Source: Zobellia alginiliquefaciens
GTDB lineage: Bacteria; Bacteroidota; Bacteroidia; Flavobacteriales; Flavobacteriaceae
NCBI RefSeq assembly: GCF_029323795.1
Contig: NZ_CP119758.1
Coordinates: forward strand, 1,302,001 to 1,366,000
Length of the DNA stretch: 64,000 nucleotides
Direction: 5' to 3'
Within the stretch, counting starts at the first letter, position 1. Every line of letters starts with the position of its first letter. The notes under the pieces were generated by a model, which made no database searches, was not told where the DNA came from, and saw only the letters and a list, made by a program, of their open reading frames with translations. This document shows positions 31,692-61,613 of this stretch, in pieces. Position numbers and translations under genes: made by a program.

Positions 31692-33248
31692 ATGATAACT
31701 TATGCCATACAAACCTTAGAATTTATTTTAAAATTCAGTCTTGTTGGTCTGCTTACGCTTACCTCAAACCCAACGGATAAAGAAAAAGATAGTAAGGCCG
31801 AACGTCCCAATATTTTATTCTGCATTGCCGATGACGCCTCAATGAAAAGTTTTGGCGCCTATGGTGATACGTTTGTAAACACCCCTTCCATTGACCGTTT
31901 GGCCAAAGAAGGTGTGGTATTTGAAAATGCGTACAACGGAAATCCTAAATGTTCACCGGCACGTGCCTGTATTTTAACGGGCAAGTACAGCTGGCAATTA
32001 AAAGAAGCGGCCGACCATAACGGTCGCTTTCCTTTGGAATTCAAGTCCTACCCACAATTATTGGAGCAAAAAGGTTATCGCGTAGGCTATACTGGTAAAG
32101 GCTGGGGACCTGGTGTTTACGACACCAAAGATAATCCTGCAGGGCCGCAACATAACGCCATCAAACTAGAACCGCCTTACAAAGGAATTACGGATGTAGA
32201 CTATGCCGCAAATTTTGAGGCATTTTTAGAAGAAGGCGCCAAGGATGCTCCCTTCTGCTTTTGGTTAGGAACCAAAGAGCCACATCGATTTTACGAATTG
32301 GATTCTTGGAAAAAAGCAGGACGCAGGCTAGAAGAAGCGAATGTTCCGCCCTTCTACCCAGATAATGAAGTGGTACGTGGCGATTTGTTGGACTATGCCA
32401 ACGAAGTAGAATGGTTTGACACCCATGTGGGCAAGGCCATAAAAACATTGGAAAAAAAGGGGCTGTTAGAAAACACCTTGGTGGTTATTACCTCAGATCA
32501 CGGTATGCCTTTCCCAAGGGTAAAAGGTCAGATTTACGAAGAAGGTTTTCATATACCCTTAATTGCCTATTGGAAAGGGAAAATCATCTCCGGTCGTACG
32601 GTGAGCGATTTTGTAAGCTTCTCGGATTTGGCGCCAACATTTATGGAGGTCGCAGGTGAAGCTCCACATCTGCAAATGACAGGTAGGAGCATTAAAAAAC
32701 AACTTTTTGCTTCTCAGTCGGGTCGAATTGACGCAGCTCGTGATCACGTACTTCTAGGAAAGGAACGGCATGATCTGGGCCGATCTAACGAAGATGGCAC
32801 CGATTTGGCATATCCTGTAAGAGCCATAAAAAACGACTCTCTTTTATACGTTCACAATATAAAACCAGAAAGATGGCCTATTGGCAATCCTGAATATGGT
32901 TTCATGAATACCGATGGTTCTCCAACAAAAAGCTACCTCACAAACTTAAAACCCGAAGATGAAGAGTATCATTATTTTGAGATGAATTTTGATAAGAAAC
33001 CGGAACATGAACTTTACAACATTCAAAAAGACCCACATTGCATCAACAATTTAGCAGAAAAACCTCAATACGAACCTGTAATTAAAAAACTTCGCACCCA
33101 GATGGAAACCGAGCTCATTGCTCAAGGCGACCCCAGAACACTGGGCAAGGGAGAGATATTTGACAATTACATCTATTACGGCAAAAGACTGGATTACAAA
33201 ACCGGTAAACGCCTGCCTCCATTAAAATATACAAAAAAGACCCACTAA
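31692..33248 (+). CDS. S1-family sulfatase 1
   Basis: A 518-residue formylglycine-dependent arylsulfatase-type enzyme. An N-terminal hydrophobic stretch may be a signal peptide, and PNILFCIADDASMKSFGAYG starts the catalytic domain. The activation motif is CSPAR (Cys87), converted to formylglycine by an FGE or anSME encoded elsewhere. The metal-binding motif SDHGMPFPR lies near residue 262. It removes sulfate esters from glycans, probably in the periplasm. Its stop is directly followed by the next sulfatase start with no gap. Confidence 0.95.
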   Translation: MITYAIQTLEFILKFSLVGLLTLTSNPTDKEKDSKAERPNILFCIADDASMKSFGAYGDTFVNTPSIDRLAKEGVVFENAYNGNPKCSPARACILTGKYSWQLKEAADHNGRFPLEFKSYPQLLEQKGYRVGYTGKGWGPGVYDTKDNPAGPQHNAIKLEPPYKGITDVDYAANFEAFLEEGAKDAPFCFWLGTKEPHRFYELDSWKKAGRRLEEANVPPFYPDNEVVRGDLLDYANEVEWFDTHVGKAIKTLEKKGLLENTLVVITSDHGMPFPRVKGQIYEEGFHIPLIAYWKGKIISGRTVSDFVSFSDLAPTFMEVAGEAPHLQMTGRSIKKQLFASQSGRIDAARDHVLLGKERHDLGRSNEDGTDLAYPVRAIKNDSLLYVHNIKPERWPIGNPEYGFMNTDGSPTKSYLTNLKPEDEEYHYFEMNFDKKPEHELYNIQKDPHCINNLAEKPQYEPVIKKLRTQMETELIAQGDPRTLGKGEIFDNYIYYGKRLDYKTGKRLPPLKYTKKTH

Positions 33249-34766
33249 ATGCATTATAACTCATTGTTCAAAAATCACTGTTTATTCCTTATTCTTTTTC
33301 TAATGTGCCCATGGTGTAATTGGGCCCAGGAAAAACAACCCAATATCATTTTTATTCTTGTAGATGATTTAGGCTATGCCGATGTGGGTTTTAATGGTTC
33401 CACCTATTTTGAGACTCCAGCATTGGATGCTTTGGCAAAAGAAAGTTTAATTTTCGACAATGCTTATATGTATCCTACCTGCTCCCCATCAAGAGCTGCA
33501 CTTTTCACTGGAAAGCAGTCCTTCCGAACCGGAGTGTACACCGTTCCCGTATTGGAAAAGGGAGACGCGGAAGAAAACATTTTTTCTAGATGGACCGTTG
33601 GCAAAGAACATACCATATACGCTAAACCTCTCGCCGAAGCGGGATACAAGTCTATTCACGTAGGCAAATGGCATATTGTTGGTCCATATCCTGAAAAAGA
33701 ATTGGCTATGGATTGGCCTATTCAGCAGAGATTGGACCAACCCCAACCTGGAGATTTTACTTGGGTAGAAAACCATAAAACCCCAACCGTAAAACAATAC
33801 TATCCTGAAGGAAGGGGCTTCATTAAAAATGTGGGCGGCACTTTTAGAGGTGACCCGGCCCTAGAAGAAGGAGGTTACAAAAGTGAACGTGGAGGCTACC
33901 GAGCTCCATTCAGCAACCCTTTTATCGAACCAAAAGCCGATGATGAATGGTTAACGGACCGATTAGCTGCCGATGCCATTGAATTTATAGACGACCATAA
34001 AAGCAATCCGTTTTTGGTCAACCTACATTTCTATGCAGTTCATCGTCCTATAAAAAATAGAAACGATGCGCTTTTTGACAAATACATGAACAAACCGGGA
34101 GATCCCATAACGGGGCAAGGCATGGGCAAAAACAAAGAAAGGATGGCCAGCTATGCAACTATGGTCCAGTCCATGGATGAGAATATTGGCAAAATCATGG
34201 CATACCTCAAAAAAAATAACTTAGAAGAAAACACCGTCTTAATTATTACCTCGGATAATGGCTATCACCCTATTGCTTCAGAAAATTTAAAAATGAGAGG
34301 CGCCAAAGGAGAAATCTATGAAGGCGGCATAAAGGTTCCTGCATTAATTCATTGGCCCGGTAAAGTGAAAGCGCGTAGAACGGAAATGCCCATTTCGGTT
34401 TTGGATTTCTTCCCTACTTTGATGGATGCTGCACAGATAGATTACAAAGGTCAGCTTGATGGAAACTCACTCACGCCCCTGTTTCAAAAGGATAATACGT
34501 TTTTTAGAGAACGACCCTTATTTTGGCATTTGGCAAGCCAGTACAAAAATGGCACTTGTTCGGTAATCAGAAAGGGAGATTATAAGTTGATTCAGTTTTT
34601 AGCCGATGGAAAACTAGAACTCTACAATTTGAAAAGTGACCCCATGGAATCGAACAACGTAGTAAAATCGGAACCAAAAACAACCCAGAAGCTACTTAAG
34701 GAATTAGTGACTTGGCGTACAAAAAATGATGTACCGCTACCTCCTAATTCCAGTCTCTCTAAATAA
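33249..34766 (+). CDS. S1-family sulfatase 2
   Basis: A 505-residue sulfatase with a signal peptide ending near WAQ (residue 27). The metal-binding start is IIFILVDDLGYADVGFNG and the activation motif is CSPSR (Cys78). The second metal motif is TSDNGYHP near residue 335. Its start codon follows the preceding stop without a gap, and its stop overlaps the next start (TAATG), so the three sulfatases are translationally coupled. Substrate position (O2, O4 or O6) cannot be read from the sequence. Confidence 0.95.
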   Translation: MHYNSLFKNHCLFLILFLMCPWCNWAQEKQPNIIFILVDDLGYADVGFNGSTYFETPALDALAKESLIFDNAYMYPTCSPSRAALFTGKQSFRTGVYTVPVLEKGDAEENIFSRWTVGKEHTIYAKPLAEAGYKSIHVGKWHIVGPYPEKELAMDWPIQQRLDQPQPGDFTWVENHKTPTVKQYYPEGRGFIKNVGGTFRGDPALEEGGYKSERGGYRAPFSNPFIEPKADDEWLTDRLAADAIEFIDDHKSNPFLVNLHFYAVHRPIKNRNDALFDKYMNKPGDPITGQGMGKNKERMASYATMVQSMDENIGKIMAYLKKNNLEENTVLIITSDNGYHPIASENLKMRGAKGEIYEGGIKVPALIHWPGKVKARRTEMPISVLDFFPTLMDAAQIDYKGQLDGNSLTPLFQKDNTFFRERPLFWHLASQYKNGTCSVIRKGDYKLIQFLADGKLELYNLKSDPMESNNVVKSEPKTTQKLLKELVTWRTKNDVPLPPNSSLSK

Positions 34767-36355
34767 TGTATCTGTACAAGGGCATTAGCATGCGTATCTC
34801 TAAACTCCTCACAAATATATTCCTGGTTCTCTTGATCGCACCAGTATGTTGGGCGCAAAAGAAACCCACCCAAAAACCCAACGTAGTTTTAATTTATGCA
34901 GATGATCTAGGAAGAGGAATGCTGGGCACCTATGGTCAAAAAATGTTGACCACACCCAATATTGACAAATTAGCCGCCCAAGGTATGCAGTTTGAAAGAG
35001 CTTATGGCGCTATGTACTGCGCTCCCGCAAGAGCCAGCTTGCTTACTGGAATGCATGACTGCCACGGTGGTGATGCCATGACTGTAGTAAAAGCCGGAAT
35101 CTATATGAAATTGGACAACGGACTTACCTTTGATGAAATTAAAACTAAGATTCACCAAGTAGCCGTACCTGCTAAAAAAGATGAAGTTTTTTTGGGTGAA
35201 GTTGCTCAAAGAGCGGGTTATACTACCGGGCAGTTTGGAAAATTGGAATGGGGTTTCGCTACCACTCCTGAACGTTTGGAGCGCCACGGGTGGGACCATC
35301 ACTTTGGATACTATGACCATGTACGATGCCATGGCTTCTATCCTCCTTTTTTGTTCGAGGATGGAAAAAAAATTGAGATTCCGGGAAATACGCATGTAGA
35401 CTGTGCCAAAACCACCGAGTACGATTCTCCGCAAAATTTCGCTATTCGCTGGAACATGGAGGGTAAAGCGGTCTATTCCGAACATATTATAATGGATAAA
35501 ATGTTGGCGTTCATGGATGAGAACCATCCCAAAAAAACGAACAAACCTTTTTTTCTCTATTTCCCTACCCAATTACCTCATGGACCGACCATGGTTCCAG
35601 AAGTACATCCAGAATTGGCCAACAACCCCAACCTGACCCAATGGGAAAAGGAATATGCTTCCATGGTAAAAATGTTAGATGACGACGTAGGACGAATTTA
35701 TTCGAAATTGGAAGAAATGGAAATTTTGGACAATACCATTATCGTTTTTACATCGGACAACGGCCATGAAATCTATTATCCTGAAGAAGGTCGCACCTCA
35801 AAAAACAACGTAAATGTTAAAGGCGAAGAATTTGATAATATCACCACTCGTTTCAACAGCCGGGTTACCGGCGATATTTTTGATGGCAACAATGGCATGT
35901 CCGGAAAAAAGCGCGACAATTGGGAAGGTGGTGTACGTGTCCCCCTATTCTGGTATTGGAAAGACCACATAAAAGCTGGTGCAGTTTCAGACCAAATGGT
36001 GAGCAACTATGACTTTTTAAATACGCTTGCTGAAATTGTAGGCGTGCCCCAAATCAAAGAAAAAGATGGAGTTTCCTATGCCAAAACCTTATTTGGAGGA
36101 AAAGCAAAATTCCGTAATTACACCATTTATTCTTCAAAAATGGGGCCTGCTTTGGTCACTCAAGATGGCTGGAAGTTAAGATACTATCTAAAAGAGGATA
36201 TTTATCAACTCTATTACCTGCCGGATGATTATGAAGAGGTGAAAGATTTAGCCAAAAAGCATCCCCAAAAAATAGAAAAACTAAAGGCCATTCTCTACAA
36301 AGAATGCAATCAAAACTGGAAAAATGGAATAGGGCCTGTCCAAAAAAGAATTTAA
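34766..36355 (+). CDS. S1-family sulfatase 3
   Basis: A 529-residue sulfatase. The overlapping start at 34766 (TAATG) is given; an in-frame ATG at 34790 starts the cleaner signal peptide MRISKLLTNIFLVLL and is a good alternative. The metal-binding segment is PNVVLIYADDLGRG. The activation motif is CAPAR (Cys85), inside MYCAPARASLLTG. A second metal motif TSDNGHEIYYPEE lies near residue 330. It is the last of three abutting sulfatases with different motif contexts, so they may remove sulfate from different positions in order. Confidence 0.94.
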   Translation: MYLYKGISMRISKLLTNIFLVLLIAPVCWAQKKPTQKPNVVLIYADDLGRGMLGTYGQKMLTTPNIDKLAAQGMQFERAYGAMYCAPARASLLTGMHDCHGGDAMTVVKAGIYMKLDNGLTFDEIKTKIHQVAVPAKKDEVFLGEVAQRAGYTTGQFGKLEWGFATTPERLERHGWDHHFGYYDHVRCHGFYPPFLFEDGKKIEIPGNTHVDCAKTTEYDSPQNFAIRWNMEGKAVYSEHIIMDKMLAFMDENHPKKTNKPFFLYFPTQLPHGPTMVPEVHPELANNPNLTQWEKEYASMVKMLDDDVGRIYSKLEEMEILDNTIIVFTSDNGHEIYYPEEGRTSKNNVNVKGEEFDNITTRFNSRVTGDIFDGNNGMSGKKRDNWEGGVRVPLFWYWKDHIKAGAVSDQMVSNYDFLNTLAEIVGVPQIKEKDGVSYAKTLFGGKAKFRNYTIYSSKMGPALVTQDGWKLRYYLKEDIYQLYYLPDDYEEVKDLAKKHPQKIEKLKAILYKECNQNWKNGIGPVQKRI

Positions 36356-36434
36356 TTCACTACCTACCGGCCATTGTTCTAAATAATAGGTAATACACCC
36401 TCTATATAAATACATATTTCTAACACCTCAACCA

Positions 36435-38150
36435 ATGTCAAAAAAATATACCGCCACACTTTTTCTCGTATTGACTTTTGCAATTTCGCATGGGCAACAG
36501 CATACACAATCCAACGACCGAAAAAAGAAAAAAGCCAGTGAAATGGTCGTAGAAAGAGAGCGTCCGGCCGAATGGAACAAACTGGTTTTAGGCGGCCGTT
36601 TTATGGACCGGTTTCTTCCCATGCCCGATTTGGGAGGTATGACTTCCGATACTTGGGGATCGCCCGGTGTACTACCAAGGGACATCAACAATGGTGTTGA
36701 GAGCCCCATATGGTCCTATTGGGGAGGAAATACCTTACTGGAGGAAGAAGATGGCAAATACCATCTTTTTGTTTGCAGGTGGCCAGAAAATGCAGAGAAA
36801 GGACATATGGCGTATCATGACAGTAGGGTTGTTCACGGGGTTTCTGAATCACCATTTGGACCGTTTAGAATTGCCGGGGAAGTTGGCCATGGGCACAACC
36901 CTACTTGGTACAGAATAAAAAAAGGCAGATATGTTCTTTATGCCATAGACAAATATTATGTGGCCCAACACATTAACGGCCCGTGGAAAGAAGGGATATT
37001 TGAGTTTGATAAACGTGATAGAGAAACTTCTAGTGCCCATAATTTCATGCACAACTGCACCTTCGCCCAACGTGAAGACGGTTCTTTTCTGATGGTCAAC
37101 AGACACGGATATTCGTGGTTCAGTAAAGACGGCCTGGCCAAATGGAATATGGTTGGCGAAAAATCTGTATATCCGCCGGTGGAAGGCAAATATGAAGACC
37201 CTGTTATCTGGAAAGACAATGTACAATACCACCTGATCGTAAACGATTGGCTGGGAAGGATTGCTTGGTACTTGCGCTCTAAAGACGGTGTAGATTGGAA
37301 AGTAGAACCCGGTGAAGCTTATATGCCCGGAATTTCGGTTCATGAATATGGAGAAAAGGAAGATTGGCACAAATACGAACGTATCCGAATACTACAAGAT
37401 GAAAAAGGCCGGGCCATTGCCGCCAACTTTGCCGTTATTGACACTTTGAAATATGAAGACCTGCCCAATGACCATCACAGCTCTAAATTGATTGTTGTTC
37501 CATTGATAAAGGATAAGTTACTAACCCTATTGAACGAGAATAAAATCACTCCAAAAACAAAAGAGATTCGAGTAAAAATAGAAGCTGAAAGTGATTTTAA
37601 CCCACAAACCGATATTGATTTCAATTCATTACGCTTTGGGGCTTCGGAAAAAGTAAATTTCGGAAAAGGAAGCCAACTCATCCGAAGCGAAAAACTAGGA
37701 AAAGACCTTGTTCTTATTTTTAATGGAAAAGGTAACGGACTCACAGCAGATAATTTTGCGGGAAAACTACTGGGTAAGGACAAAAAAGGAAAATTGCTCT
37801 TTGGCTACACCCGTTTACCGCAAGTTGAATACATACAACCTATGCTATCCGCTAGAGCACCAATGATTACAAAAACCTCCGAGGGCTATACTATTGAAGT
37901 GAAAGTGGAGAATTTTGGACAAATAGCATCCACAGAAACCAAAATTCTACTCACCCTCATTGAAAAGGAAAAAGAAAAGGAGTTGGCTTCAGGAAAAGTA
38001 AAGCCCATAAAGCCTTTTCAAGAAGTTACAGTGTCATTTCCTAGTAAAATAAAACTACAAAAAGGAACTACCTACACGGTTAAGAGCACCATCCTTACAG
38101 ATGATAACGAACCTGTACATTTCACCAAAACCATCACATTACAAGAATAA
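36435..38150 (+). CDS. secreted beta-propeller-like protein of unknown glycan role
   Basis: A 571-residue protein with a signal peptide (residues 1-20, ending SHG-Q). The central part (about residues 80-350) has repeated blade-like segments such as EEEDGKYHLFVCRW, HNPTWYRIKKGRYVLYAI and EDPVIWKDNVQYHLIV, in the style of GH43/GH117-like five-bladed propellers. The last 180 residues look like beta-sandwich domains (one CARDB-like). I cannot place it in a known GH family. Acidic residues in the blades could be catalytic, but this is unproven. It lies in the PUL between sulfatases and a GH31/36-like enzyme, so it is a candidate for a new glycanase. Confidence 0.8.
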   Translation: MSKKYTATLFLVLTFAISHGQQHTQSNDRKKKKASEMVVERERPAEWNKLVLGGRFMDRFLPMPDLGGMTSDTWGSPGVLPRDINNGVESPIWSYWGGNTLLEEEDGKYHLFVCRWPENAEKGHMAYHDSRVVHGVSESPFGPFRIAGEVGHGHNPTWYRIKKGRYVLYAIDKYYVAQHINGPWKEGIFEFDKRDRETSSAHNFMHNCTFAQREDGSFLMVNRHGYSWFSKDGLAKWNMVGEKSVYPPVEGKYEDPVIWKDNVQYHLIVNDWLGRIAWYLRSKDGVDWKVEPGEAYMPGISVHEYGEKEDWHKYERIRILQDEKGRAIAANFAVIDTLKYEDLPNDHHSSKLIVVPLIKDKLLTLLNENKITPKTKEIRVKIEAESDFNPQTDIDFNSLRFGASEKVNFGKGSQLIRSEKLGKDLVLIFNGKGNGLTADNFAGKLLGKDKKGKLLFGYTRLPQVEYIQPMLSARAPMITKTSEGYTIEVKVENFGQIASTETKILLTLIEKEKEKELASGKVKPIKPFQEVTVSFPSKIKLQKGTTYTVKSTILTDDNEPVHFTKTITLQE

Positions 38151-38154
38151 ACTC

Positions 38155-39597
38155 ATGAACAATAGAAGAGATTTTATAAAAAAAGCGGGCATGGGTGTTG
38201 CTCTTGCTGGTATTACTGGCCCATTGGCCGCAAGGACTACTCCCTCTCATTTTGAAATATCCAATAAAAAAGGAGCTTCCGAAGGTGAAAAAGTAAAAAT
38301 AAAGGTAACCAAACCTCTATTTTGCCCGTACAATAGTGATGGTACGCCAGCTCAAAAAGGCGGTGATGCCTATTATTTTCTAAGCGATTCTTTTACCCAT
38401 AATCCGTTTACGATTCCGGCAAGTGGAATGAGTGGTTCACCTATTATTCGCGACGCCGCAGGTAAATTCGTTGGTTTTATGACCTCTTTCGGTTTCGAAA
38501 ATTCAACCTTTAGTTTTGATGGAAAAGAAACCTTAACGATTAACGTTCCGGATGGCCAAGAACTTTTTGTGGATGAAAGTGGCAATGGCGATGAAGCCTG
38601 GAAAGCTTACAATACCAAAATGATGCATCGCTTGAATATTCAACCGTATAAAGTCCATCCTCATTTCTGGGCCGATGTTGAATATTGTACTTGGGTAGAA
38701 CAGAAAATACAATCCAATGTTCCCAAAGGACACTTTAACCTATTAAATCATGACTTTGTTGCGAAGTATTTGGATAAAATTATTGAATACGGATATCCAA
38801 AGGGAAAAATGACATTGGACCATGGCTGGGGCCAATTCCCTGACGGTAGTTTAAACTCCGGTTACGGTTCGTGGCATCCGGACCCGAAGAAATTTCCCGA
38901 TTTCCACAAGACCATGGACCTTATCAACGAAAAGGGTTTCACCCCTGGTCTTTGGATCGCTTTCCCAAAAATACATGGTGCCAGTACTATTGCTCAAAGC
39001 TCCCCCAATCTCTTGGGTGCTTTTAGGGCACAAGGCAAAACCAAATACGACAAAGGTGTGCGTTGGCTCAATCCTAAGGCGGATATTTTTGAATATGCCT
39101 CAGAAACCATTTACCGTTTTCACAAAATGGGGGTTCGAAAGTTTAAAATTGATATGTCTTACAACACAAAATCGGACATGCTACACATACATAAAGAACT
39201 ATACAAAGCGGCAAAAGGCATTGATGAAACTATTGAAATGGAGTTTCACGTTCCCGATATTTTCTTTACCAAATTTACGGATGTCACCCGAACCAACGAT
39301 GTTTGGCTCAATGATAAATATGATTGGCCCGCCCGTGTAAAAACACATTATGAGATTTCCTATAAGTCCTCACCAGGCCGCGGTATCAACTTGGATCACA
39401 TTGGGGGAAATGCGGAAAAGGACATCACCGAAGAAAAATACCTCCAGCATCTAGAAATGTTCAAATCCAAAATAGGATATCCTCTGGTTTCTGTACTTCC
39501 ACATCATATCAGCCAAAAGTGTGTTGATCAAACCGGTGATTACCTGTGGGATTACGAAAAAGGACCTAGAAACATCATTTCGGACTTTTATTTATAA
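38155..39597 (+). CDS. Tat-exported GH31/GH36-like (clan GH-D type) alpha-glycosidase
   Basis: A 481-residue protein with a twin-arginine signal (NNRRDFIKKAGMGVALAG). The N-terminal third is beta-rich. It is followed by a TIM barrel with MTLDHGWGQFPDG, HPDPKKFPDFHKTMDLINEK and GFTPGLWIAFPKI, as in alpha-galactosidase/alpha-glucosidase families. A likely nucleophile is Asp333 in VRKFKIDMSY; the acid/base is not certain. The start at 38155 follows the previous stop by 4 bases, and an upstream in-frame start lies inside that gene. It probably removes an alpha-linked sugar end. Confidence 0.78.
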   Translation: MNNRRDFIKKAGMGVALAGITGPLAARTTPSHFEISNKKGASEGEKVKIKVTKPLFCPYNSDGTPAQKGGDAYYFLSDSFTHNPFTIPASGMSGSPIIRDAAGKFVGFMTSFGFENSTFSFDGKETLTINVPDGQELFVDESGNGDEAWKAYNTKMMHRLNIQPYKVHPHFWADVEYCTWVEQKIQSNVPKGHFNLLNHDFVAKYLDKIIEYGYPKGKMTLDHGWGQFPDGSLNSGYGSWHPDPKKFPDFHKTMDLINEKGFTPGLWIAFPKIHGASTIAQSSPNLLGAFRAQGKTKYDKGVRWLNPKADIFEYASETIYRFHKMGVRKFKIDMSYNTKSDMLHIHKELYKAAKGIDETIEMEFHVPDIFFTKFTDVTRTNDVWLNDKYDWPARVKTHYEISYKSSPGRGINLDHIGGNAEKDITEEKYLQHLEMFKSKIGYPLVSVLPHHISQKCVDQTGDYLWDYEKGPRNIISDFYL

Positions 39598-39697: not shown

Positions 39698-41275
39698 ATG
39701 ATTCAAATGGTTAAAAATCTTAGTCTCGCGCTTTGTTGTATTTCCTTTTTTGCGATCTCATCTTGTAGAGAAAGTCAAAAAAAAGCAAACGTAGAAACAG
39801 CCGATACTCGCCCCAACATCTTATGGATCACCATTGAGGATTGGAGTCCGGATCTATCCTGTTATGGCACAAAAGGGATTCACACCCCTTTTGTAGATAA
39901 ATTGGCATCGGAAGGCATTCGTTATAACAAAGCGTTTACCACTTCACCGGTCTGTTCTACATCTCGCTCGGCAATGATGACCGGTTTCCATCAAAACTAT
40001 ATCCGTGCCAACCAACATCGTGAGCATAACAAACAGCCTTTGCCACACGGCATAAAACCCATTCCAAAACTGTTTGAAGAAGCTGGTTATTTCACCACGT
40101 TGATGAGCTGGAAAACGGACATGAACTTTCTACCCGACAGTAAAGAAGAGCTTTTTATGAATACCAATGATTGGAGAGACCGTAAACCAGGGCAGCCTTT
40201 CTTTGCTAGAATCACATTTGGAGGAACACACCGATCTTGGAACCGAGATCCTGAGAGGCCTATTGATATAAAGGATGTAGAGCTTCCGCCCTATTATGCA
40301 GACACTCCATTTGTACGTCGTGATTGGGCCAATGGCCTTGAACAGATGCAACTGGTAGACCGTGAGGTTGGTGCACTGTTAAAACGATTGGAAGATGAAG
40401 GCCTAGCAGAAAATACTATTGTGTTTTTTATTGGAGACCATGGTCGTTGTCATATTCGCGGAAAACAATTTTTGTACGATGGTGGTACACACATTCCTAT
40501 GATTATGAGATGGCCAGGGAGAATTGAACCCAAACAAATAAGTGAAGATATGGTCATGTCTATTGATATTGATGCAACCATCCTTGAAGCCGCTGGCATT
40601 ACCCCTCCGGTTCCACTTCACGGCAAAAACCTTTTAGAGGATGACATTAAAAACCGAAAATACACTTTTGCCGCGCGAGATAAAATGGACGAGACCCATG
40701 ATGCCATGCGTTCCATACGCTCCAAAGACTACAAACTCATTCTTAACTTGATGCCCGAAAGACCCTATCTGCAGTACAACCAGTACAAAGAAAATGCATA
40801 CCCAGTTCTGGCTGAAATGAGTATCATGCACCTGAAAGGCGAGCTTACTCTTGAGCAGGCCGCTTTCTTTGCTCCTACAAAACCCGAAATTGAGTTATAT
40901 GACCTACAAAAAGACACATTTGAGGTAGTCAATGTAGCCAATAACCCCGAATATAGCTCTGTGAAAAAAGAGCTGTTGGCCGAGCTTCAAAACTGGCGCA
41001 CCAACGTCATTGAAGATGAAGGTGTGAGTGATGAATTTAGAGCCGTTGGCGTTTTTCCAGATAAGAATCCATTTTCAACAGTGGACGAATGGGTAGCCAA
41101 AAACCAAAAAAACTATGATTTTAACCGTATAGGCTGGCCTGCATGGTATCCTACTAAAACGCTTCAAGAATGGCAAAAGGCCCGTAAAAAATGGGACCCT
41201 TATGTTATGAGAGGAGCTTCTGAAAATATACCTCGTCCTGAAATTGGCATTATCAAAAAGAAGAAAAAGAATTAA
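39698..41275 (+). CDS. S1-family sulfatase 4, lipoprotein, CSTSR motif
   Basis: A 525-residue sulfatase with a lipobox ISSC near residue 23, so it is likely attached to a membrane. The metal-binding segment is PNILWITIEDWSPDLSCYG. The activation motif is CSTSR (Cys86), where the third position is Thr, not the usual Pro or Ala. The second metal motif GDHGRCHIRGKQFLYDGG lies near residue 248. The family assignment is clear, and the Thr occurs in some S1 subfamilies. The gene lies 15 bases before a GH29 fucosidase. Confidence 0.93.
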   Translation: MIQMVKNLSLALCCISFFAISSCRESQKKANVETADTRPNILWITIEDWSPDLSCYGTKGIHTPFVDKLASEGIRYNKAFTTSPVCSTSRSAMMTGFHQNYIRANQHREHNKQPLPHGIKPIPKLFEEAGYFTTLMSWKTDMNFLPDSKEELFMNTNDWRDRKPGQPFFARITFGGTHRSWNRDPERPIDIKDVELPPYYADTPFVRRDWANGLEQMQLVDREVGALLKRLEDEGLAENTIVFFIGDHGRCHIRGKQFLYDGGTHIPMIMRWPGRIEPKQISEDMVMSIDIDATILEAAGITPPVPLHGKNLLEDDIKNRKYTFAARDKMDETHDAMRSIRSKDYKLILNLMPERPYLQYNQYKENAYPVLAEMSIMHLKGELTLEQAAFFAPTKPEIELYDLQKDTFEVVNVANNPEYSSVKKELLAELQNWRTNVIEDEGVSDEFRAVGVFPDKNPFSTVDEWVAKNQKNYDFNRIGWPAWYPTKTLQEWQKARKKWDPYVMRGASENIPRPEIGIIKKKKKN

Positions 41276-41289
41276 AGCCAAAATTCGGA

Positions 41290-42792
41290 ATGAAAACAAA
41301 AATCAAACTATTACAAAAAGTAGCTATCGTCAGCTTATTTTTTATGGAGATAACTGCATTGCACGCTCAGCTCAAACCAAAAAAATTTCAACCCGAATGG
41401 GAATCTATCCGTGAGGGGTATGAAATTCCGGAATGGTTCAAAGATGCCAAATTCGGTATTTTTCTACATTGGGGGCCTTACGCCGTACCTGCATACAGTA
41501 GTGAAAAATATCCAAAGGGAATATACGATCCAAGATGGTCCAAGGGTGGTAAAAAGCCCTATCCCTATCACCGCGAACATTATGGCGACCCCTCAAAATT
41601 TGGATATAAAGATTTTATACCCCAGTTCAAGGCAGAAAAGTTCGATGCCAACGAATGGGCAACTTTATTTAAAAAGGCAGGGGCACGCTATGTGGTACCT
41701 GTGGCCGAACATCATGACGGCTATGCCATGTACGCTTCTAACCACACCCGCTGGAACGTGAAGGATACGGGTCCAAAAAAAGACGTTATGCGCCTATTGT
41801 CCGATGCGGTCAAGGCCAACGGAATGAAGTTTGGAGCATCTTCTCATTTTGCATTGCACAGAATTTACTATGAAAAAGATGACCCAACGTGGGACACCAA
41901 TAATCCTGAATTTTACGACCTATATGGCGAACCTGTAGGTAACGACACCTTACCCACAAAAAAATTCCTCAACCTTTGGTGGAACCGAACCACGGATATA
42001 ATTGACAATTACGAACCCGATTTGCTCTGGTTCGATTTTGGGTTGGACAAACCCGGTTTTGAAGTCATGCACAAAAAAATACTGGCCTACTACTATAACA
42101 AAGGTGAAGAATGGAACAAGGGTGTTGTTTTTCAGGACAAGAACATGAGAAACAAGTCTTTTCCTGAAGACCTGATCGTGTTGGACATTGAGCGCGGCCG
42201 TATGGATGGCATTTACAAATACCCTTGGCAGACCGATACTTCAATAGGAAAAATTTCTTGGGGATATGTAACCAATGAAGAGTATAAAACACCAAATTAC
42301 CTTCTTGACGAACTGATAGACATTGTTAGTAAGAACGGATGTTTATTATTGAATATAGGCCCAAAGGCCGATGGTACCATTCCTTCAGAAGCAAAAAAAA
42401 TACTGAGCGAAATGGGCCAATGGTTAAGTCTTAATGGTGAAGCAATTTATGACACACGACCTTGGACCATATTTGGCGAAGGTCCTACGAAGGTAGAAAC
42501 AGGTCACCATTCCGAAAAGAAAAACAAGGAATCCGGACCGGAGGACTTTCGTTTTACCACCAAAGGCAAAACCCTTTACGCAACTGCCTTGGGTTGGCCG
42601 GAAGATGGAAAATTCAATATCAAATCGTTAGCAAAGAACAATCCTAATATCTCAAAAAACATAGCATCCGTAGAATTCGTTAGCGGCAAGAACCCTATAA
42701 AATGGAAGCAAACCGGCAAAGGACTTTCCATAACCGTTGATGGTCAAAAACCTTGCGAAGCTGCTTATGTATTTCGGATAAAATTCAATTAA
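41290..42792 (+). CDS. GH29 alpha-L-fucosidase
   Basis: A 500-residue secreted enzyme with a signal peptide (ending ALHAQ). The GH29 hallmarks are WFKDAKFGIFLHWGPYAVPA (about residue 50), AEHHDGYAMYASNHTRWNV (about residue 140) and the nucleophile Asp249 in DLLWFDFGLD. The segment NGCLLLNIGPKADGTIP precedes the C-terminal beta domain. It releases alpha-linked L-fucose (or a related sugar) by a retaining mechanism. Its presence points to fucose in the target glycan. It lies 15 bases after sulfatase 4, so they are cotranscribed. Confidence 0.94.
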   Translation: MKTKIKLLQKVAIVSLFFMEITALHAQLKPKKFQPEWESIREGYEIPEWFKDAKFGIFLHWGPYAVPAYSSEKYPKGIYDPRWSKGGKKPYPYHREHYGDPSKFGYKDFIPQFKAEKFDANEWATLFKKAGARYVVPVAEHHDGYAMYASNHTRWNVKDTGPKKDVMRLLSDAVKANGMKFGASSHFALHRIYYEKDDPTWDTNNPEFYDLYGEPVGNDTLPTKKFLNLWWNRTTDIIDNYEPDLLWFDFGLDKPGFEVMHKKILAYYYNKGEEWNKGVVFQDKNMRNKSFPEDLIVLDIERGRMDGIYKYPWQTDTSIGKISWGYVTNEEYKTPNYLLDELIDIVSKNGCLLLNIGPKADGTIPSEAKKILSEMGQWLSLNGEAIYDTRPWTIFGEGPTKVETGHHSEKKNKESGPEDFRFTTKGKTLYATALGWPEDGKFNIKSLAKNNPNISKNIASVEFVSGKNPIKWKQTGKGLSITVDGQKPCEAAYVFRIKFN

Positions 42793-42826: not shown

Positions 42827-44539
42827 ATGAGCAAATTTTATTTTAACGAGGAACAAAGTTCCTATGATGCCATTGTAGTAGGCACCGGCGTTAGCGGGGG
42901 CTGGGCAGCCAAAGAATTATGTGAAAACGGATTAAAAACCCTGATGCTAGAAAGGGGCCGAATGGTGGAACACATAAAAGACTACACCACTGCCCATATG
43001 GACGACTGGGACTTTAAACATGGAATGGAACTTTCAATTGAAGAAAAGGCCAAAAGACCTAAACAAAGTAGAACCAACAAAGGCAAAAGCGCAGACTCGT
43101 ACAAGTGGTTCGTGAACGACTTAGAGCATCCTTACAATGAAACCAAACCTTTTAACTGGATGCGGGGTTATCACGTTGGTGGCCGTTCCATTACTTGGGG
43201 CAGGCACAGTTACCGATGGAGCGAAATCGACTTTGAAGCCAATAAAAATGATGGTCATGGGGTTGATTGGCCCATTCGTTATAAGGATATTGCCCCTTGG
43301 TACGATAAGGTGGAAAGTTATATAGGCGTATCCGGCGAAAAAATGGGACTGAGACAACTACCGGATGGCCAATTCCTTCCAATGATGGAATTGAACTGTG
43401 TAGAGCAACATTTTAGGGATAAAGTGTATGAAAACCTAGACGGAAGAGTAGTTACTTCTGGCCGTATTGCGCACATTACGGGCGACAAAGAATTTGAAGG
43501 GCGTACCAAATGCCAGTTTAGAAACCGTTGTTCCAGAGGATGTCCTTTTGGCGGCTATTTTAGCAGTAACTCGTCTACCTTACCTGCTGCGGAACGAACA
43601 GGAAATTTAACCTTGAGACCTGATTCTATTGTAACTGAAGTCATTTACGACCCAAATACTAAAAAGGCAACGGGCGTAAAAGTGATTGATCGCTTGACCA
43701 AAGAAGAACTAGTATTTAAGGCAAAAGTTATTTTCTTGTGTGCATCTGCCATTGCCTCCGCATCAATACTCATGCAATCAAAATCGGACCGTTTTCCTAA
43801 CGGAATGGGTAACGACTCAGACCAACTGGGCCGCAACATAATGGACCATCATTTAGGTGCCGGAGCAAACGGAAAATTTGACGGGTATGATGATAAATAT
43901 TATAAAGGAAGAAGGCCCGGTGGTGTATACATTCCGCGATTTAAAAACATTGATGCCAAATCTAAAAGTAAGGATTACTTACGCGGATTCGGGTATCAAG
44001 GAAGTGCAAGCCGTAAAAACTGGAAAGATGCAGTTGCCGAACTTACCATGGGCGCCGAGCTTAAAGAGGCTATCTTAAAACCAGGCGGATGGACCATGGG
44101 CGTAGGTGGTTTTGGCGAAATACTACCCTACCAAGATAACCGAATGACTTTAGACTATGACAATCTAGATGGATGGGGTCTACCTACCGTAACCTTTGAT
44201 GCCGAAATACGTGACAACGAGTTAAAAATGCGTGAAGATATTGTAGTACAAGCTGCCGAGATGCTTAAAAAGGCAGGTGCAAGAGACATCAACACCCACA
44301 ACAGCTCGTATAACATTGGTCACGGTATTCACGAAATGGGGACCGCCCGTATGGGAAGGGATCCAAAGACTTCGGTCTTAAATGGTCATAACCAAATACA
44401 CGAAGTACCAAATGTTTATGTTACCGATGGTGCCTTTATGGCTTCATCAAGTTGTGTAAACCCGTCATTGACTTACATGGCATTTTCAGCACGAGCGGCA
44501 AACCACGCAGCAGAAGAACTTAAAAAAGGAAATATATAA
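42827..44539 (+). CDS. GMC-family oxidoreductase (glycoside 3-dehydrogenase large-subunit type)
   Basis: A 570-residue FAD-dependent oxidoreductase. The FAD-binding fold opens with DAIVVGTGVSGGWAAKELC, and the C-terminal GMC region has HEMGTARMGRDPKTSV and VNPSLTYM. A Cys cluster, C229-x5-C-x3-C (C229, C235, C239 in KCQFRNRCSRGCPFGG), may hold an iron-sulfur cluster as in FAD-dependent glucose dehydrogenases. No signal peptide is seen; such subunits are exported with their partner (next gene). It probably oxidises a sugar hydroxyl. No c-type cytochrome subunit is adjacent. Confidence 0.88.
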   Translation: MSKFYFNEEQSSYDAIVVGTGVSGGWAAKELCENGLKTLMLERGRMVEHIKDYTTAHMDDWDFKHGMELSIEEKAKRPKQSRTNKGKSADSYKWFVNDLEHPYNETKPFNWMRGYHVGGRSITWGRHSYRWSEIDFEANKNDGHGVDWPIRYKDIAPWYDKVESYIGVSGEKMGLRQLPDGQFLPMMELNCVEQHFRDKVYENLDGRVVTSGRIAHITGDKEFEGRTKCQFRNRCSRGCPFGGYFSSNSSTLPAAERTGNLTLRPDSIVTEVIYDPNTKKATGVKVIDRLTKEELVFKAKVIFLCASAIASASILMQSKSDRFPNGMGNDSDQLGRNIMDHHLGAGANGKFDGYDDKYYKGRRPGGVYIPRFKNIDAKSKSKDYLRGFGYQGSASRKNWKDAVAELTMGAELKEAILKPGGWTMGVGGFGEILPYQDNRMTLDYDNLDGWGLPTVTFDAEIRDNELKMREDIVVQAAEMLKKAGARDINTHNSSYNIGHGIHEMGTARMGRDPKTSVLNGHNQIHEVPNVYVTDGAFMASSSCVNPSLTYMAFSARAANHAAEELKKGNI

Positions 44540-44541
44540 TC

Positions 44542-45105
44542 ATGGATAGAAGAAAAGCATTGATGCAAATAGGAATGTCAATGGGTTACGTAGTAGTCGC
44601 GCCGACATTCATGAGTGTTTTACAAAGTTGTAAGGACACCAAAGAAACTACATGGGTCCCTCAATTTCTTGACCAAGACCAAGGCGCCACACTAATAGGG
44701 TTTGTTGACAGTATATTGCCCAAGACAGACACACTTTCGGCATCCGAAGTAAACGTCCATATCTTTTTGGACAGTTTTGCCAATGAGGTTATGACACCAA
44801 AGCAACGAGACCAGTTCAAAGCTACTTTAAACCAACTGGCCTCTAACGCTCTTGCGAGCTCCAAAAAAGAAAACATTCACGACTTAACGGCTGCAGACCT
44901 TGCTCCAGAAATAAGAAAAGCATTGACCGATAAAATGGCAAAAGGTGTTCCTTTTGTAAAAAGGTTGCGTGACCTCACCATTTGGGGCTACAAATGCACA
45001 GAATATGTTGGAGAAGAAGTTTTAGCTTATGATTCCATACCTGGACAATATATTCCGTGTGGTGATTTAGATGAACTAACAGGAGGAAAAGCTTGGTCTA
45101 TTTAA
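44542..45105 (+). CDS. gluconate 2-dehydrogenase subunit 3-like (Tat lipoprotein) partner
   Basis: A 187-residue protein with a twin-arginine signal, DRRKALMQIGMSMG, and a lipobox-like LQSC near residue 31, as in Bacteroidota partners of GMC oxidoreductases. The body matches the gluconate 2-dehydrogenase subunit 3 family (TLIGFVDSILPKTDTLSA, then RLRDLTIWGYKCTEYVGEEV). The gene starts 2 bases after the GMC gene, so the two proteins surely form a complex. The partner carries the export signal for both. Confidence 0.9.
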   Translation: MDRRKALMQIGMSMGYVVVAPTFMSVLQSCKDTKETTWVPQFLDQDQGATLIGFVDSILPKTDTLSASEVNVHIFLDSFANEVMTPKQRDQFKATLNQLASNALASSKKENIHDLTAADLAPEIRKALTDKMAKGVPFVKRLRDLTIWGYKCTEYVGEEVLAYDSIPGQYIPCGDLDELTGGKAWSI

Positions 45106-45115
45106 ACCAAGCTTT
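45088..45115 (+). terminator. stable hairpin spanning the stop codon of the subunit-3 gene
   Basis: A perfect 10-bp inverted repeat (AAAGCTTGGT at 45088-45097, complement at 45106-45115) with an 8-base loop contains the stop codon. Only a weak T stretch follows, so it may be a transcript-end or mRNA-stability hairpin and not a strong terminator. The next gene begins 36 bases later. Confidence 0.4.
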
Positions 45116-45150
45116 AATCCACAAGAACCTACCAAACAAAGAGAACGAAA

Positions 45151-46071
45151 ATGAAAAGACGCAACTTCATACAAAAAACAGCATTATCTACCGGAGCGGT
45201 TTCAATGGGTCCAAGCTTATCTTATGCCTCTACCCTAGCTTCAGCAAAAGATCCATATAAATTCAACCTTAAATATGCCCCGCATTTGGGCATGTTTGAA
45301 AACCTTGCAGGCAAAGACCCAATTGACCAATTGAATTTCATGGCAGACCATGGCTTTACCGCTTTTGAGGATAATAAAATGCGCACCCGAGATGTAGCTC
45401 TACAAGAAAAAATGGCGCAAACCATGCACAAAAGGAGCATTGAAATGGGTGTTTTTGTAGCTGTTTTTCTAAAAGAAGGAAATGTAGCTTCCGGGAATCC
45501 CGAAAAAAGGAAAGCCTTTTTAGCACACTGTAAAGAATCCGTAGAGGTAGCGAAGCGAGTAAATGCAAAATGGATGACGGTTGTACCGGGAAATATAGCT
45601 ACCAAAATTAGGGAAGGATACCAAACCACAAATGTAGTTGAGACCTTAAAGCAAGCTTCAGCTATTTTTGAACCGCATAACCTTACTATGGTTCTTGAGC
45701 CTTTGAATTTTTTCAATCATCCAAATGCTTTTCTGACTGATTCACCACAGGCCTACGAGATATGCAAAGCTGTAGATTCGCCTTCTTGCAAAATTCTTTT
45801 CGACATATATCATCAACAAATCCAAGAAGGTAATCTCATACCTAATATGGAAGCCTGTTGGGATGAAATTGCTTACATCCAAATTGGCGACAATCCCGGA
45901 AGAAATGAGCCCACTACAGGAGAAATCAATTACTGGAATATGCTAAGATTTATTAAAGAGAAAGGCTACAACGGTATTTTAGGCATGGAGCATGGCAACT
46001 CCAAACCAAATAAGGAAGGTGAACAAGCGGTAATAGAAGCGTATAAAAATGTGGATTCATTCGCTCGTTAA
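45151..46071 (+). CDS. Tat-exported TIM-barrel sugar isomerase/epimerase-like protein (Hyi-like)
   Basis: A 306-residue AP-endonuclease-2-fold protein with twin-arginine signal KRRNFIQKTALSTGAVS. Metal-ligand segments MVLEPLNFFNHPNAF (Glu), CKILFDIYHQQIQEGN (Asp, His) and GILGMEHGNSKP (Glu, His) match the hydroxypyruvate isomerase group. In this exported setting it more likely acts on an oxidised (3-keto) sugar or glycoside than on hydroxypyruvate. It follows the GMC and subunit-3 genes, a recurring grouping in Bacteroidota. The function is inferred. Confidence 0.85.
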   Translation: MKRRNFIQKTALSTGAVSMGPSLSYASTLASAKDPYKFNLKYAPHLGMFENLAGKDPIDQLNFMADHGFTAFEDNKMRTRDVALQEKMAQTMHKRSIEMGVFVAVFLKEGNVASGNPEKRKAFLAHCKESVEVAKRVNAKWMTVVPGNIATKIREGYQTTNVVETLKQASAIFEPHNLTMVLEPLNFFNHPNAFLTDSPQAYEICKAVDSPSCKILFDIYHQQIQEGNLIPNMEACWDEIAYIQIGDNPGRNEPTTGEINYWNMLRFIKEKGYNGILGMEHGNSKPNKEGEQAVIEAYKNVDSFAR

Positions 46072-57752: not shown

Positions 57753-59579
57753 ATGTTCAATTTCTATTCTTTAAAAGCACTTTACCTGTGCGCTATATTC
57801 TTTTTTAGTACTTACCATCTTGCGGCACAGGAGACCATTCACTTAAAGGCAGAAGCCGAAGACATGACCCCTTTGGTTCGTGAAGCCCTGGAGAATGCAA
57901 CCGATAAAAACTTGACTTTGGTTTTTGATAAAGGGATTTATAAATTTTTACCCGATTATGCCACCCAACAGTATTCTTACATCACGAATCACGGGAACGG
58001 ATTAAAAAACATTATTTTTCTATTGGAGGATTTTGATTCCGTAACCATAGAAGGCAACGGTGCTGAATTTATCTTTCATGGGCAAGTCGCTCCTTTCCAA
58101 ATTAGAAATTGTGGGAAGCTAACCGTAAAAAACCTAAAAATGGATTGGGATATTCCTTTTTTATTTCAAGGTGAAGTGTTAGCCATTGATAAAAAACAGG
58201 GGTGGCGAGATATTAAACCTTTTACCGACGGGTTTTCATGGGAATTGAAGAAAGACCGTATTTTCTTCCCCAATATAGATGGTTTCTCGTTTCCTGAGTT
58301 AGGCAGCACTTTGGCATTTAATGCGGAACATAAACGAGTAGCACATGGCGCATGGGATATGAGCAGCAGACCGCGTTGGGTAGAGAAAAGACCTAATGGA
58401 GTCCTTCGTTTTCATGAACATTTAAAGCAATATCCGGCTGTAGGTTCAATTTTAAATTCAAAGGGAGATCATGACCATAACCGCTATGCGCCGGCTTTTC
58501 AAATTACATCTTCCAAAGATGTTCATTTGGAAGATGTAACGATTCACCATGCCTTGGGAATGGGATTACTTTTTGAGCGAACTGAAAATATTACCATCAA
58601 CAATTGCGGCATTTATGTTCGTGAGGGCTCAGACCGAGTGGTTTCTACCATTGCAGACGCTACCCATTTTGCCAATTGCAAGGGTGATATTCTTATTGAG
58701 AATTCCACTTTTAAGCATATGCTGGACGATGGCACCAATGTGCATGGGACGTATGTAGTTGTAGATAAAATTTTAAATGACCATAGCGTCCGCGTATATC
58801 TTCAGCATTTTGAACAGATGGGTTTTGAATTTGCTGCCTCAGGCGATGAAGTATGGCTTATACAACAGCCCAGCCCAAAAAGGGGTCCTGAAAATACCGT
58901 AACCAATGTTGCCGTGGTAAATGACAAATACTCGGACATCACTTTTAAAAATAAATTACCTCATTCTTTAGCCGAGGGTGACATTCTTGAAAACAAAACA
59001 TGGAATCCTACCTTTACCATGCGCGGTTGCACGATTAAGGACCATAGGGCACGCAATATTGTTCTAAAAACACCTTTGAAAACCGTAATTGAGGGCAATA
59101 ATTTTTCCGCTATGATGTCTTCTATTTTCTTCAGGGGAGAAACCTATTTCTGGTTTGAATCCGGCGCGGTTGAAGATGTCCTGATTCAGAATAACAATTT
59201 TGAATATAGCGCTTACAGCGGTATGGAACATGCCATTTTAAATATCACGCCACGCCTCGGGAAGGATTTTGATCAGACTGAAATATATGACCGTAACATC
59301 CGCTTTATCAATAACAACATTAAAACTTTTGACAACCGGATTGTTTGGGCCGATCGGGTAGACGGATTAATCATATCCGGTAACACAATTGAACAAACCC
59401 GGGAAGAACTGTCTCTTTATCCCAATGCACATCAGTTCGATTTTAAAAATTGTAAAAACGTTGAAATTTTAAACAACACCTATAAAGGAAATGCAGAAAA
59501 GGTGCTTAAAACGGAAGGCTCATCAACTGAAAAAATTAAATTCAAACGTAATAAGGGGTTTGCAAACCACGAAAAGTAA
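57753..59579 (+). CDS. GH110-like alpha-1,3-galactosidase (right-handed beta-helix), copy 1
   Basis: A 608-residue secreted parallel beta-helix protein with a signal peptide (ending LAAQ near residue 25). Beta-helix segments such as SVTIEGNGAEFIFHG and KLTVKNLKMDWDIPF come first. The conserved GH110-type segments STIADATHFANCKGDILIEN and MLDDGTNVHGTYV follow, the latter with Asp325 and Asp326. GH110 enzymes remove terminal alpha-1,3-linked galactose with inversion. The neighbouring sulfatase is 9 bases before. Substrate could be desulfated galactan ends. It is paralogous to the next gene. Confidence 0.85.
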   Translation: MFNFYSLKALYLCAIFFFSTYHLAAQETIHLKAEAEDMTPLVREALENATDKNLTLVFDKGIYKFLPDYATQQYSYITNHGNGLKNIIFLLEDFDSVTIEGNGAEFIFHGQVAPFQIRNCGKLTVKNLKMDWDIPFLFQGEVLAIDKKQGWRDIKPFTDGFSWELKKDRIFFPNIDGFSFPELGSTLAFNAEHKRVAHGAWDMSSRPRWVEKRPNGVLRFHEHLKQYPAVGSILNSKGDHDHNRYAPAFQITSSKDVHLEDVTIHHALGMGLLFERTENITINNCGIYVREGSDRVVSTIADATHFANCKGDILIENSTFKHMLDDGTNVHGTYVVVDKILNDHSVRVYLQHFEQMGFEFAASGDEVWLIQQPSPKRGPENTVTNVAVVNDKYSDITFKNKLPHSLAEGDILENKTWNPTFTMRGCTIKDHRARNIVLKTPLKTVIEGNNFSAMMSSIFFRGETYFWFESGAVEDVLIQNNNFEYSAYSGMEHAILNITPRLGKDFDQTEIYDRNIRFINNNIKTFDNRIVWADRVDGLIISGNTIEQTREELSLYPNAHQFDFKNCKNVEILNNTYKGNAEKVLKTEGSSTEKIKFKRNKGFANHEK

Positions 59580-59729
59580 AGCTTATGAATTTCACTCCAC
59601 CCGAATTAACACACTCATAAACAACTTCTTGTATTAGTGAAGACATAATATTTACCATAGAGGACACGCAAAGTGAGGCCTACCCCTAATTTGGCTCCTG
59701 TTAATTGACCTCTTAAACGATCAGAACAA

Positions 59730-61613
59730 ATGAAAAGAGTTTTATCCCTTTGGTGCATTCTTATACTAACCCTTGTTTCGTCTCCTGTTTTCGCACAGCA
59801 TAGCGATGGCGAACAGGTATTATTCACAACTTCTATTTCGGATGATGCTACTCCTGCGGTTCTCGCACGAATTAGGCGCGCAGATAAAGAACCTATTTCA
59901 GAAATAAAATTTGAAAAAGGCACCTATCACTTTTATCCGGATAAGGCCTACGAACGTTTTACCCGTATTTCTAATCATGATGATGTAATGGCGAAAACTG
60001 CCTTGCCTCTACTTGGTTTTAAAGAGCTTACTATTGATGGTCAAGGTTCCACCTTCATTTACCACGGTAGAATGATTCCTTTTTTAATTGAAGGCTCTGA
60101 AAACATTACAGTGCAGAACGTAACCATAGACTGGGCTATGCCGTTCCATAGCGAAGGAACTATTGTGGCCAAGGACGAGAAGAACAACTCGTTCGATATT
60201 CAATTTTCCGATGAATATCCGTATGAAATCCGGAATGAGCAGCTAATCTTCATCAAAGAATATTATGAGCATACCTTGGGGCAATCCATTCTGTATGACC
60301 CAGCAAGAATGGCCATCGCTTTTGACACCGAAGCATATACCCCGATTGTAGCTTCTCGCAATTCAAAAGTGCAGCATAACTTGGATAAGATCAATTATAA
60401 ATACAAAGTAGACCCTCGTTCTAAAGTAGAAAAAGTTCGTGGCAAAGAAGACAATTTACGGGCAGAGGAATTAAAGCCTGGCACCGTGCGCATTTTCAAT
60501 CACAAAAAGAAATTGCCACCGGTTGGCATGATTCTGGTTTGCAAAGGCGACCAAAGTCTGAACCGTTTGGCTCCTGCATTCCGTATTACCGGTACTGACG
60601 GTTTTAACGCCAACAACGTTACCGTACACCATGCAGGTGGTATGGGTTTGATCGCCGAAAATTCTTCAGACCTTATTTTGGATGGTTTTCACGTAAAACC
60701 GTCAAACGGCAGAATGGTATCTACTTCTGCAGATGCCACTCATTTTGTGGGTTGCCGGGGTAAAGTGGTATTAAAAAATAGCACTTTCAACAATCAGCTA
60801 GATGATGCCACCAACGTTCATGGCACATACCAAGAGGTAATAGACATCCTAAGTAAAAATAGTATTGGTGTTCGCATAGGCCACGCGCAGCAACAGGGTT
60901 TTTCAATTGGTAAAGCCAATGATACTATTGGTCTAGTACGTTTAGCAGATTCATTTTTCGCCTATGGCCATTTAACCCTTAAGAAGGTAGAGGAGATAAA
61001 TGGCAGATATCAAATCATCACTTTTAAAGAACAACTCCCGGAAAATTTAAAAGTGGGCGACCTTATCGAAAACTTAGAAGGTTACCCTGATCTACTGGTC
61101 CAGAATTGCAATATTAGCCGCAATAGGGCACGCGGTCTTTTGATTTCCAACCCTAAGAAAACCTTGATAGAGAATAATTTTTTTAGCACTGAAATGGAGG
61201 CTATCTTAGTTCCTGTTGAAAGTAGTCATTGGTTTGAATCCGGCAACGCTGCCAATTTGATTATTAGAAACAATACTTTTCAAGATAGTCAGCATAGTGG
61301 ATTCAACAGGGGAATAATTCGTTTTGTTACGGATGATGACAATGACAATATCGCCTTTAAAAACATTCAGATAATAGACAACAAATTCAATCAGTTTGAT
61401 AATATGATTTTGGAAATTTCCAATGTTGACGGATTGTTGTTTCAAGGTAATACAATTACCAATTCAGGTACTTTTCCTATGTTACATCCCGAAAACCCTG
61501 CCATTAGGGTCGCGTCTTCCAAAAACATCGTTTTCAAGAAGAATGATTACAAAGGAAAAGCCAAAAATATTCTAGAAACCGATGATTCAATGCCCAAGCT
61601 AAAATTCCGATAA
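59730..61613 (+). CDS. GH110-like alpha-1,3-galactosidase (right-handed beta-helix), copy 2
   Basis: A 627-residue secreted protein with a signal peptide (ending VFAQ). It has the same layout as copy 1: ELTIDGQGSTFIYHG, ENITVQNVTIDWAMPF, then STSADATHFVGCRGKVVLKN and QLDDATNVHGTY, with Asp358 and Asp359. The middle differs from copy 1 by an insert near residue 220-245 rich in Lys, Arg and Glu. The two copies have diverged well beyond recent duplication, so they probably act on different ends or differently sulfated neighbours. The gap before it is 150 bases with no gene. Confidence 0.85.
   Translation: MKRVLSLWCILILTLVSSPVFAQHSDGEQVLFTTSISDDATPAVLARIRRADKEPISEIKFEKGTYHFYPDKAYERFTRISNHDDVMAKTALPLLGFKELTIDGQGSTFIYHGRMIPFLIEGSENITVQNVTIDWAMPFHSEGTIVAKDEKNNSFDIQFSDEYPYEIRNEQLIFIKEYYEHTLGQSILYDPARMAIAFDTEAYTPIVASRNSKVQHNLDKINYKYKVDPRSKVEKVRGKEDNLRAEELKPGTVRIFNHKKKLPPVGMILVCKGDQSLNRLAPAFRITGTDGFNANNVTVHHAGGMGLIAENSSDLILDGFHVKPSNGRMVSTSADATHFVGCRGKVVLKNSTFNNQLDDATNVHGTYQEVIDILSKNSIGVRIGHAQQQGFSIGKANDTIGLVRLADSFFAYGHLTLKKVEEINGRYQIITFKEQLPENLKVGDLIENLEGYPDLLVQNCNISRNRARGLLISNPKKTLIENNFFSTEMEAILVPVESSHWFESGNAANLIIRNNTFQDSQHSGFNRGIIRFVTDDDNDNIAFKNIQIIDNKFNQFDNMILEISNVDGLLFQGNTITNSGTFPMLHPENPAIRVASSKNIVFKKNDYKGKAKNILETDDSMPKLKFR

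Follow-up and report, generated by a model that had tools for sequence, protein, structure and literature searches.

A candidate glycoside hydrolase family on a GH117-related five-bladed propeller in a sulfatase locus of Zobellia

In a sulfatase locus of Zobellia alginiliquefaciens, one gene raises the question of which reaction, if any, its product contributes. It lies at 36435..38150 (+ strand) of the window, the whole 64,000-nucleotide stretch of DNA analyzed here, which belongs to a genome assembled as a single contig of 5.07 Mb. A first-pass annotation had described the product as a secreted protein with GH43/GH117-type propeller blades and C-terminal β-sandwiches that could not be assigned to a family. 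The open reading frame, its relatives and an AlphaFold model indicate a real gene, with an ATG start confirmed in the sequence and a product of 571 residues, which we present as a candidate new family of five-bladed-propeller glycoside hydrolases.

Domain layout and predicted fold

Residues 1 to ~21 (36435..36497, + strand) form a Sec-type signal peptide, recognized by eye as a KK pair followed by a hydrophobic stretch at ~8-17 and matched by a modelled helix at residues 3-25, in agreement with the secretion signal noted earlier. The same by-eye reading found no Cys lipobox in the N-terminal signal region. The full-length AlphaFold2 model (md997afe9e9b0), run on a 58-sequence alignment, has a mean pLDDT of 91.8 and a pTM of 0.89, and consists of the signal-peptide helix, a disordered linker, an N-terminal segment, five blades and two β-sandwiches. 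The N-terminal segment and the predicted five-bladed β-propeller span residues 41-366 (36555..37532, + strand), with the five blade strands at ~93-357. Two C-terminal β-sandwiches follow as had been anticipated, at residues ~377-460 (37530..37832, + strand) and 477-568 (37842..38147, + strand). The first is kept in paralogs of about 840 residues and is thus considered part of the core, whereas the second, which resembles CARDB below threshold, is absent from them. The N-terminal half of these paralogs (L002, L022-L026 and L013-L016) is new and is followed by the propeller and the first sandwich, the second having been lost.

Structural similarity search with the full-length model was partly misleading, because the sandwiches drew integrins and sialidases among the matches, and the search was redone with the propeller alone. 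Modelled on its own, the propeller gave the same outcome (pLDDT 91.7). Its best query-normalized TM-score against the PDB was 0.60, to the GH117 protein Zg3597 (4u6b_C), followed by BT_3662 with 0.59 and by GH43 and GH62 proteins at ~0.55, among many GH43, GH32 and GH62 matches; a TM-score near 0.6 denotes a fold in common, not a family in common. The full-length model also resembles GH159, another five-bladed propeller, with a target-normalized TM-score of 0.62 and 14% identity in the structural alignment, but the two have no sequence match. The viral structure library gave no useful match to the predicted fold. The model and the PDB matches, a comparison proposed in the first-pass annotation, therefore bear out the five-bladed GH43/GH117-type propeller, and the predicted structure has the five blades characteristic of GH117. 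As the fold neighbors are mostly arabinofuranosidases, xylosidases and galactosidases, the protein could instead be a propeller hydrolase that, like GH43, GH62 or GH159, acts on another residue of the same polymers, for instance a D-galactosyl or L-arabinofuranosyl end. This alternative is possible but on balance doubtful, for reasons that appear in its motifs and neighbors below.

Family placement and blade motifs

The protein has no match to a characterized family in Pfam, NCBIfam or PDB sequences, so it is still without a family assignment. Its best Pfam hit, CARDB to the last domain (E 0.004), lies below the gathering cut-off; NCBIfam gave no match, and neither did the PDB sequence search, profile search included. 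Pfam GH43 (PF04616) does not match the window protein and stays below cut-off in all close members scanned, the best being L021 with 18.8 bits against a cut-off of 32.2. BLAST and hhalign connect the protein to a 390-residue GH117-like family (L003, L020 and kin). Against the L003 family, hhalign gave a probability of 99.8% and an E of 7e-29 with the entire propeller covered, and the L003 family in turn aligns with GH117 at a probability of 100% and an E of 5e-53. By contrast, the direct alignment of the target family profile (A2) with GH117 gave only local matches at a probability of 28%, which is not significant. Tied to GH117 through the L003 family and lacking a significant direct match, the protein is placed in a broader GH117-related group, outside GH117 itself. 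The 390-residue family carries WGG-like, HNP, NP, ED and ERP motifs at the corresponding five positions, but is only ~29% identical to the target and lacks the C-terminal sandwiches; L003 exceeds the Pfam GH43 cut-off, and the family has only distant matches to solved structures.

Judged by Pfam, NCBIfam and the PDB, and as far as these libraries show, the protein represents a new family whose fold class is known. It may also belong to a CAZy family that is already numbered, or not yet published, and absent from Pfam and NCBIfam, a case compatible with every other reading. NCBIfam and Pfam do lag behind CAZy, and several gut Bacteroides encode the family. Nevertheless we deem it unlikely, as the PDB sequences hold no match and no propeller is named among the fucosidase families (GH29, GH95, GH139, GH141 and GH151) or the endo-fucanase families (GH107, GH168, GH174 and GH187) listed in PMC12786026 (CAZy accessed November 2025). 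No propeller fucosidase turned up in our literature searches.

Further analysis of 112 sequences from three groups revealed a polar set common to all three, comprising W96, H110, W116, S130, H154, N155, N207, E254, D255, E315 and R316, of which H154, N155, N207, E254, D255, E315 and R316 are near-invariant across the superfamily. Each blade carries one motif (WGG, HNP, N207, EDP and ER), situated where its innermost strand begins (all + strand): W96-G97-G98 on blade 1 (36720..36728), H154-N155-P156 on blade 2 (36894..36902), N207 on blade 3 (37053..37055), E254-D255-P256 on blade 4 (37194..37202) and E315-R316 on blade 5 (37377..37382). The starts of the innermost strands mark the pocket in five-bladed hydrolases, so we expect the protein to have a conserved pocket that contains three carboxylates; the pocket side of the blades is predicted to bear the near-invariant E254, D255 and E315, which fits the acidic central pocket expected of a propeller hydrolase.

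GH117 comprises 3,6-anhydro-α-L-galactosidases and Zg3597/Zg3615. The target shares with this family the five-bladed propeller, the best structural score, the profile link through L003, the L-galacto sugar series and similar seaweed loci, but differs at the catalytic residues. Aligned via the L003 family, G97 occupies the position of the blade-1 Asp (RRDP), which we take to be the GH117 catalytic base, and N207 that of the second Asp (HDP) on blade 3. The blade-4 motif aligns with the GH117 His-Glu (GHE). The blade-5 E315-R316 motif is new, and the two C-terminal sandwiches are a further difference. With GH43, GH62, GH32 and relatives, the target has in common the five blades and a pocket at the strand starts, but probably not the Asp/Asp/Glu triad, of which two Asp appear to be lost as read from the alignment with GH117. 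GH43 and GH117, put forward earlier as models, hold for the fold and fail for the catalytic residues, and the apparent loss of the triad also speaks against an arabinofuranosidase- or galactosidase-like enzyme of the GH43 type.

The replacement of the GH117 catalytic Asp pair by Gly and Asn, together with the CARDB-like last domain, would suit a propeller that does not hydrolyze at all, either a carbohydrate-binding protein, as other propellers bind sugar without cutting it, or a lyase or transferase with the same pocket. We judge this very unlikely. The three carboxylates and the H/N/R residues where the blades start stay near-invariant in members as far apart as 45% identity and across three phyla, and one related propeller forms a fusion with an S1 sulfatase, as would suit an enzyme. 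One conserved motif per blade, which a passive scaffold would not need, suggests a rebuilt catalytic site.

The locus and the neighborhoods of relatives

The gene sits between sulfatases and glycosidases, as previously noted. Directly upstream are three S1 sulfatases (31692-33248, 33249-34766 and 34766-36355; 31692..36355, + strand), and downstream a fourth S1 sulfatase (39698-41275) and a GH29 α-L-fucosidase family protein (41290-42792; together 39698..42792, + strand). Between target and fourth sulfatase lies a Tat-signal protein (38155..39597, + strand) with weak similarity to GH31/GH36 α-galactosidases and no Pfam or NCBIfam enzyme family; Zobellia, Arenibacter and Kriegella are the only genera in which it adjoins the target, and from its sequence it is also a candidate new family. 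Further down are additional S1 sulfatases, and the latter half of the locus encodes two GH110-type proteins (GLAA-B barrel; 57753..61613, + strand). The locus also holds a hybrid two-component regulator, two SusCD pairs and a GMC oxidoreductase group. GH29, GH110 and the many sulfatases together suit a sulfated polymer bearing fucose and galactose. Two FucP homologs exceed the cut-off in the window genome. In a row inside the locus (42827-46071) stand genes for a GMC oxidoreductase, a gluconate-2-dehydrogenase subunit 3 and a xylose-isomerase-like protein, perhaps for oxidative handling of a sugar, and a 1127-residue FG-GAP/UnbV_ASPIC repeat protein is encoded at 52781-56164. At the place of the 36355-36435 interval, other Zobellia and Kriegella (L037:9175-9924) carry a GDSL esterase gene that is missing from the window genome, where the best match elsewhere is 27%.

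About 320 relatives were found in the genome collection, including orthologs in Zobellia. The nearest are from Zobellia, with that of Z. uliginosa C3R17 at 88%, and the family occurs in only 4 of 395 evenly drawn Bacteroidota genomes. Eighty of these relatives, from Bacteroidota, Planctomycetota and Kiritimatiellota, were taken with up to 10 kb on either side. Their neighborhoods contain 17 GH95 genes against 1.7 expected (from 215 GH95 in 161.5 Mb), 14 GH29 and three FucP. GH2, included as a control for the general clustering of genes in polysaccharide loci, is itself enriched 7.7-fold (24 against 3.1), and the excess of GH95 over GH2 by presence alone is not significant (P 0.21). General clustering thus explains much of the raw GH95 enrichment, which we dropped as strong evidence. 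The neighborhood claim rests instead on same-strand closeness. All 17 GH95, 13 of 14 GH29 and all three FucP (33/34 together) lie within three genes on the same strand, compared with 7/24 for GH2; for GH95 against GH2, this gives an odds ratio of 4.7 (P 4e-4), an indicative value as the three-gene cut was set after a first look at the data. The comparison uses all 80 loci, not a 29-genome subset chosen after the GH95 list had been seen. These neighborhoods occur in several clades of the protein tree, while 54 of the 80 loci, many of them truncated, have no GH95, GH29 or FucP in the stretch covered (33/56 among loci of at least 15 kb). The enrichment of GH2 and the two GH110-type proteins in the window locus would also suit a hydrolase for another sugar; yet among the counted neighbors only GH95, GH29 and FucP are nearly always so close.

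In gut relatives, the gene directly follows those for FucP, an amidohydrolase and a Zn-alcohol dehydrogenase, and in Bacteroides oleiciplenus a LacI regulator comes first, followed by aldo-keto reductase, Zn-dehydrogenase, amidohydrolase, FucP and the target-family gene. In six loci the adjoining gene is a GH123, which counts against the fucose reading. In Pontiella (Kiritimatiellota), the gene is accompanied by a sulfatase (68% identical) and a GH110-type protein (53% identical), which argues that the three were kept or passed on as a unit. An 826-residue paralog in Z. galactanivorans has a GH29 adjoining and further GH29 nearby, with a GH117 (PDB 4u6d) and a porphyranase-like protein close, and α-L-galactosyl units are the expected substrate there. 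In a Zobellia genome that is most likely Z. galactanivorans (G005), a protein matches this Z. galactanivorans GH117 structure over all 414 residues. The ZGAL_3628-3640 stretch has been considered more likely a porphyran locus (PMC5698469). The Z. galactanivorans locus orthologous to this one is L119/L120. A correspondence of L119/L120 to PUL26/PUL27, for which PMC9296495 reports induction by L. digitata as well as by sulfated polysaccharides containing fucose, forms no part of our evidence.

A proposed reaction

Because related bacteria have the gene close to others for cutting and taking up fucose, a fucosidase-like family is probable. L-fucose is the 6-deoxy form of L-galactose, and the substrate of GH117 enzymes, 3,6-anhydro-L-galactose, is likewise of the L-galacto series, so both clues point to one sugar series. 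Such neighbors are no proof of fucose as substrate, since they often serve other links of the same glycan. The GH29 and GH95 α-L-fucosidases share with the target the proposed substrate sugar and common gene neighborhoods, but have other folds, a TIM barrel and an α/α barrel respectively, and no homology to it.

We favor, with slightly less than even confidence, a secreted glycoside hydrolase with an exo mode of action, from an unclassified family related to GH117 propellers, that acts on terminal α-L-fucosyl or α-L-galactosyl residues after desulfation. Taken part by part, the protein very probably hydrolyzes glycosides, and its L-fuco/L-galacto specificity is an even call. The S1 sulfatases of the locus would first strip blocking sulfates from a sulfated algal galactan or fucan, and the enzyme would then remove the terminal α-L-fucosyl (or α-L-galactosyl) residue from oligosaccharides of the polymer, with the sugar end held in the pocket at the start of the five innermost strands. 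An inverting mechanism is envisaged, in which E254, at the GH117 His-Glu place on blade 4, would serve as general acid and E315 on blade 5 as general base. This pair is proposed because the usual blade-1 Asp base is lost; it is a guess, the simplest choice among three carboxylates, and rather unlikely to be right. Only tentatively, then, do we suggest a new family containing the first five-bladed-propeller α-L-fucosidase/α-L-galactosidase, a relative in the GH117 line whose catalytic base has moved off blade 1.

If true, the fucosidases would gain a new family with an unexpected fold, represented in seaweed degraders, in planctomycetes and in Bacteroides and Parabacteroides of the gut, and the protein would be a clear example of how an active site can be rebuilt inside a single propeller. 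The slow decay of sulfated, fucose-rich polysaccharides from seaweed matters for ocean carbon, and the enzyme would supply a step in their breakdown. Separately, a single frame (L019:841-3273, - strand), cut off at the edge of its locus, encodes both an S1 sulfatase and a GH117-like propeller whose motifs resemble the target's, a putative union, read from sequence, of sulfatase and glycosidase in one polypeptide.
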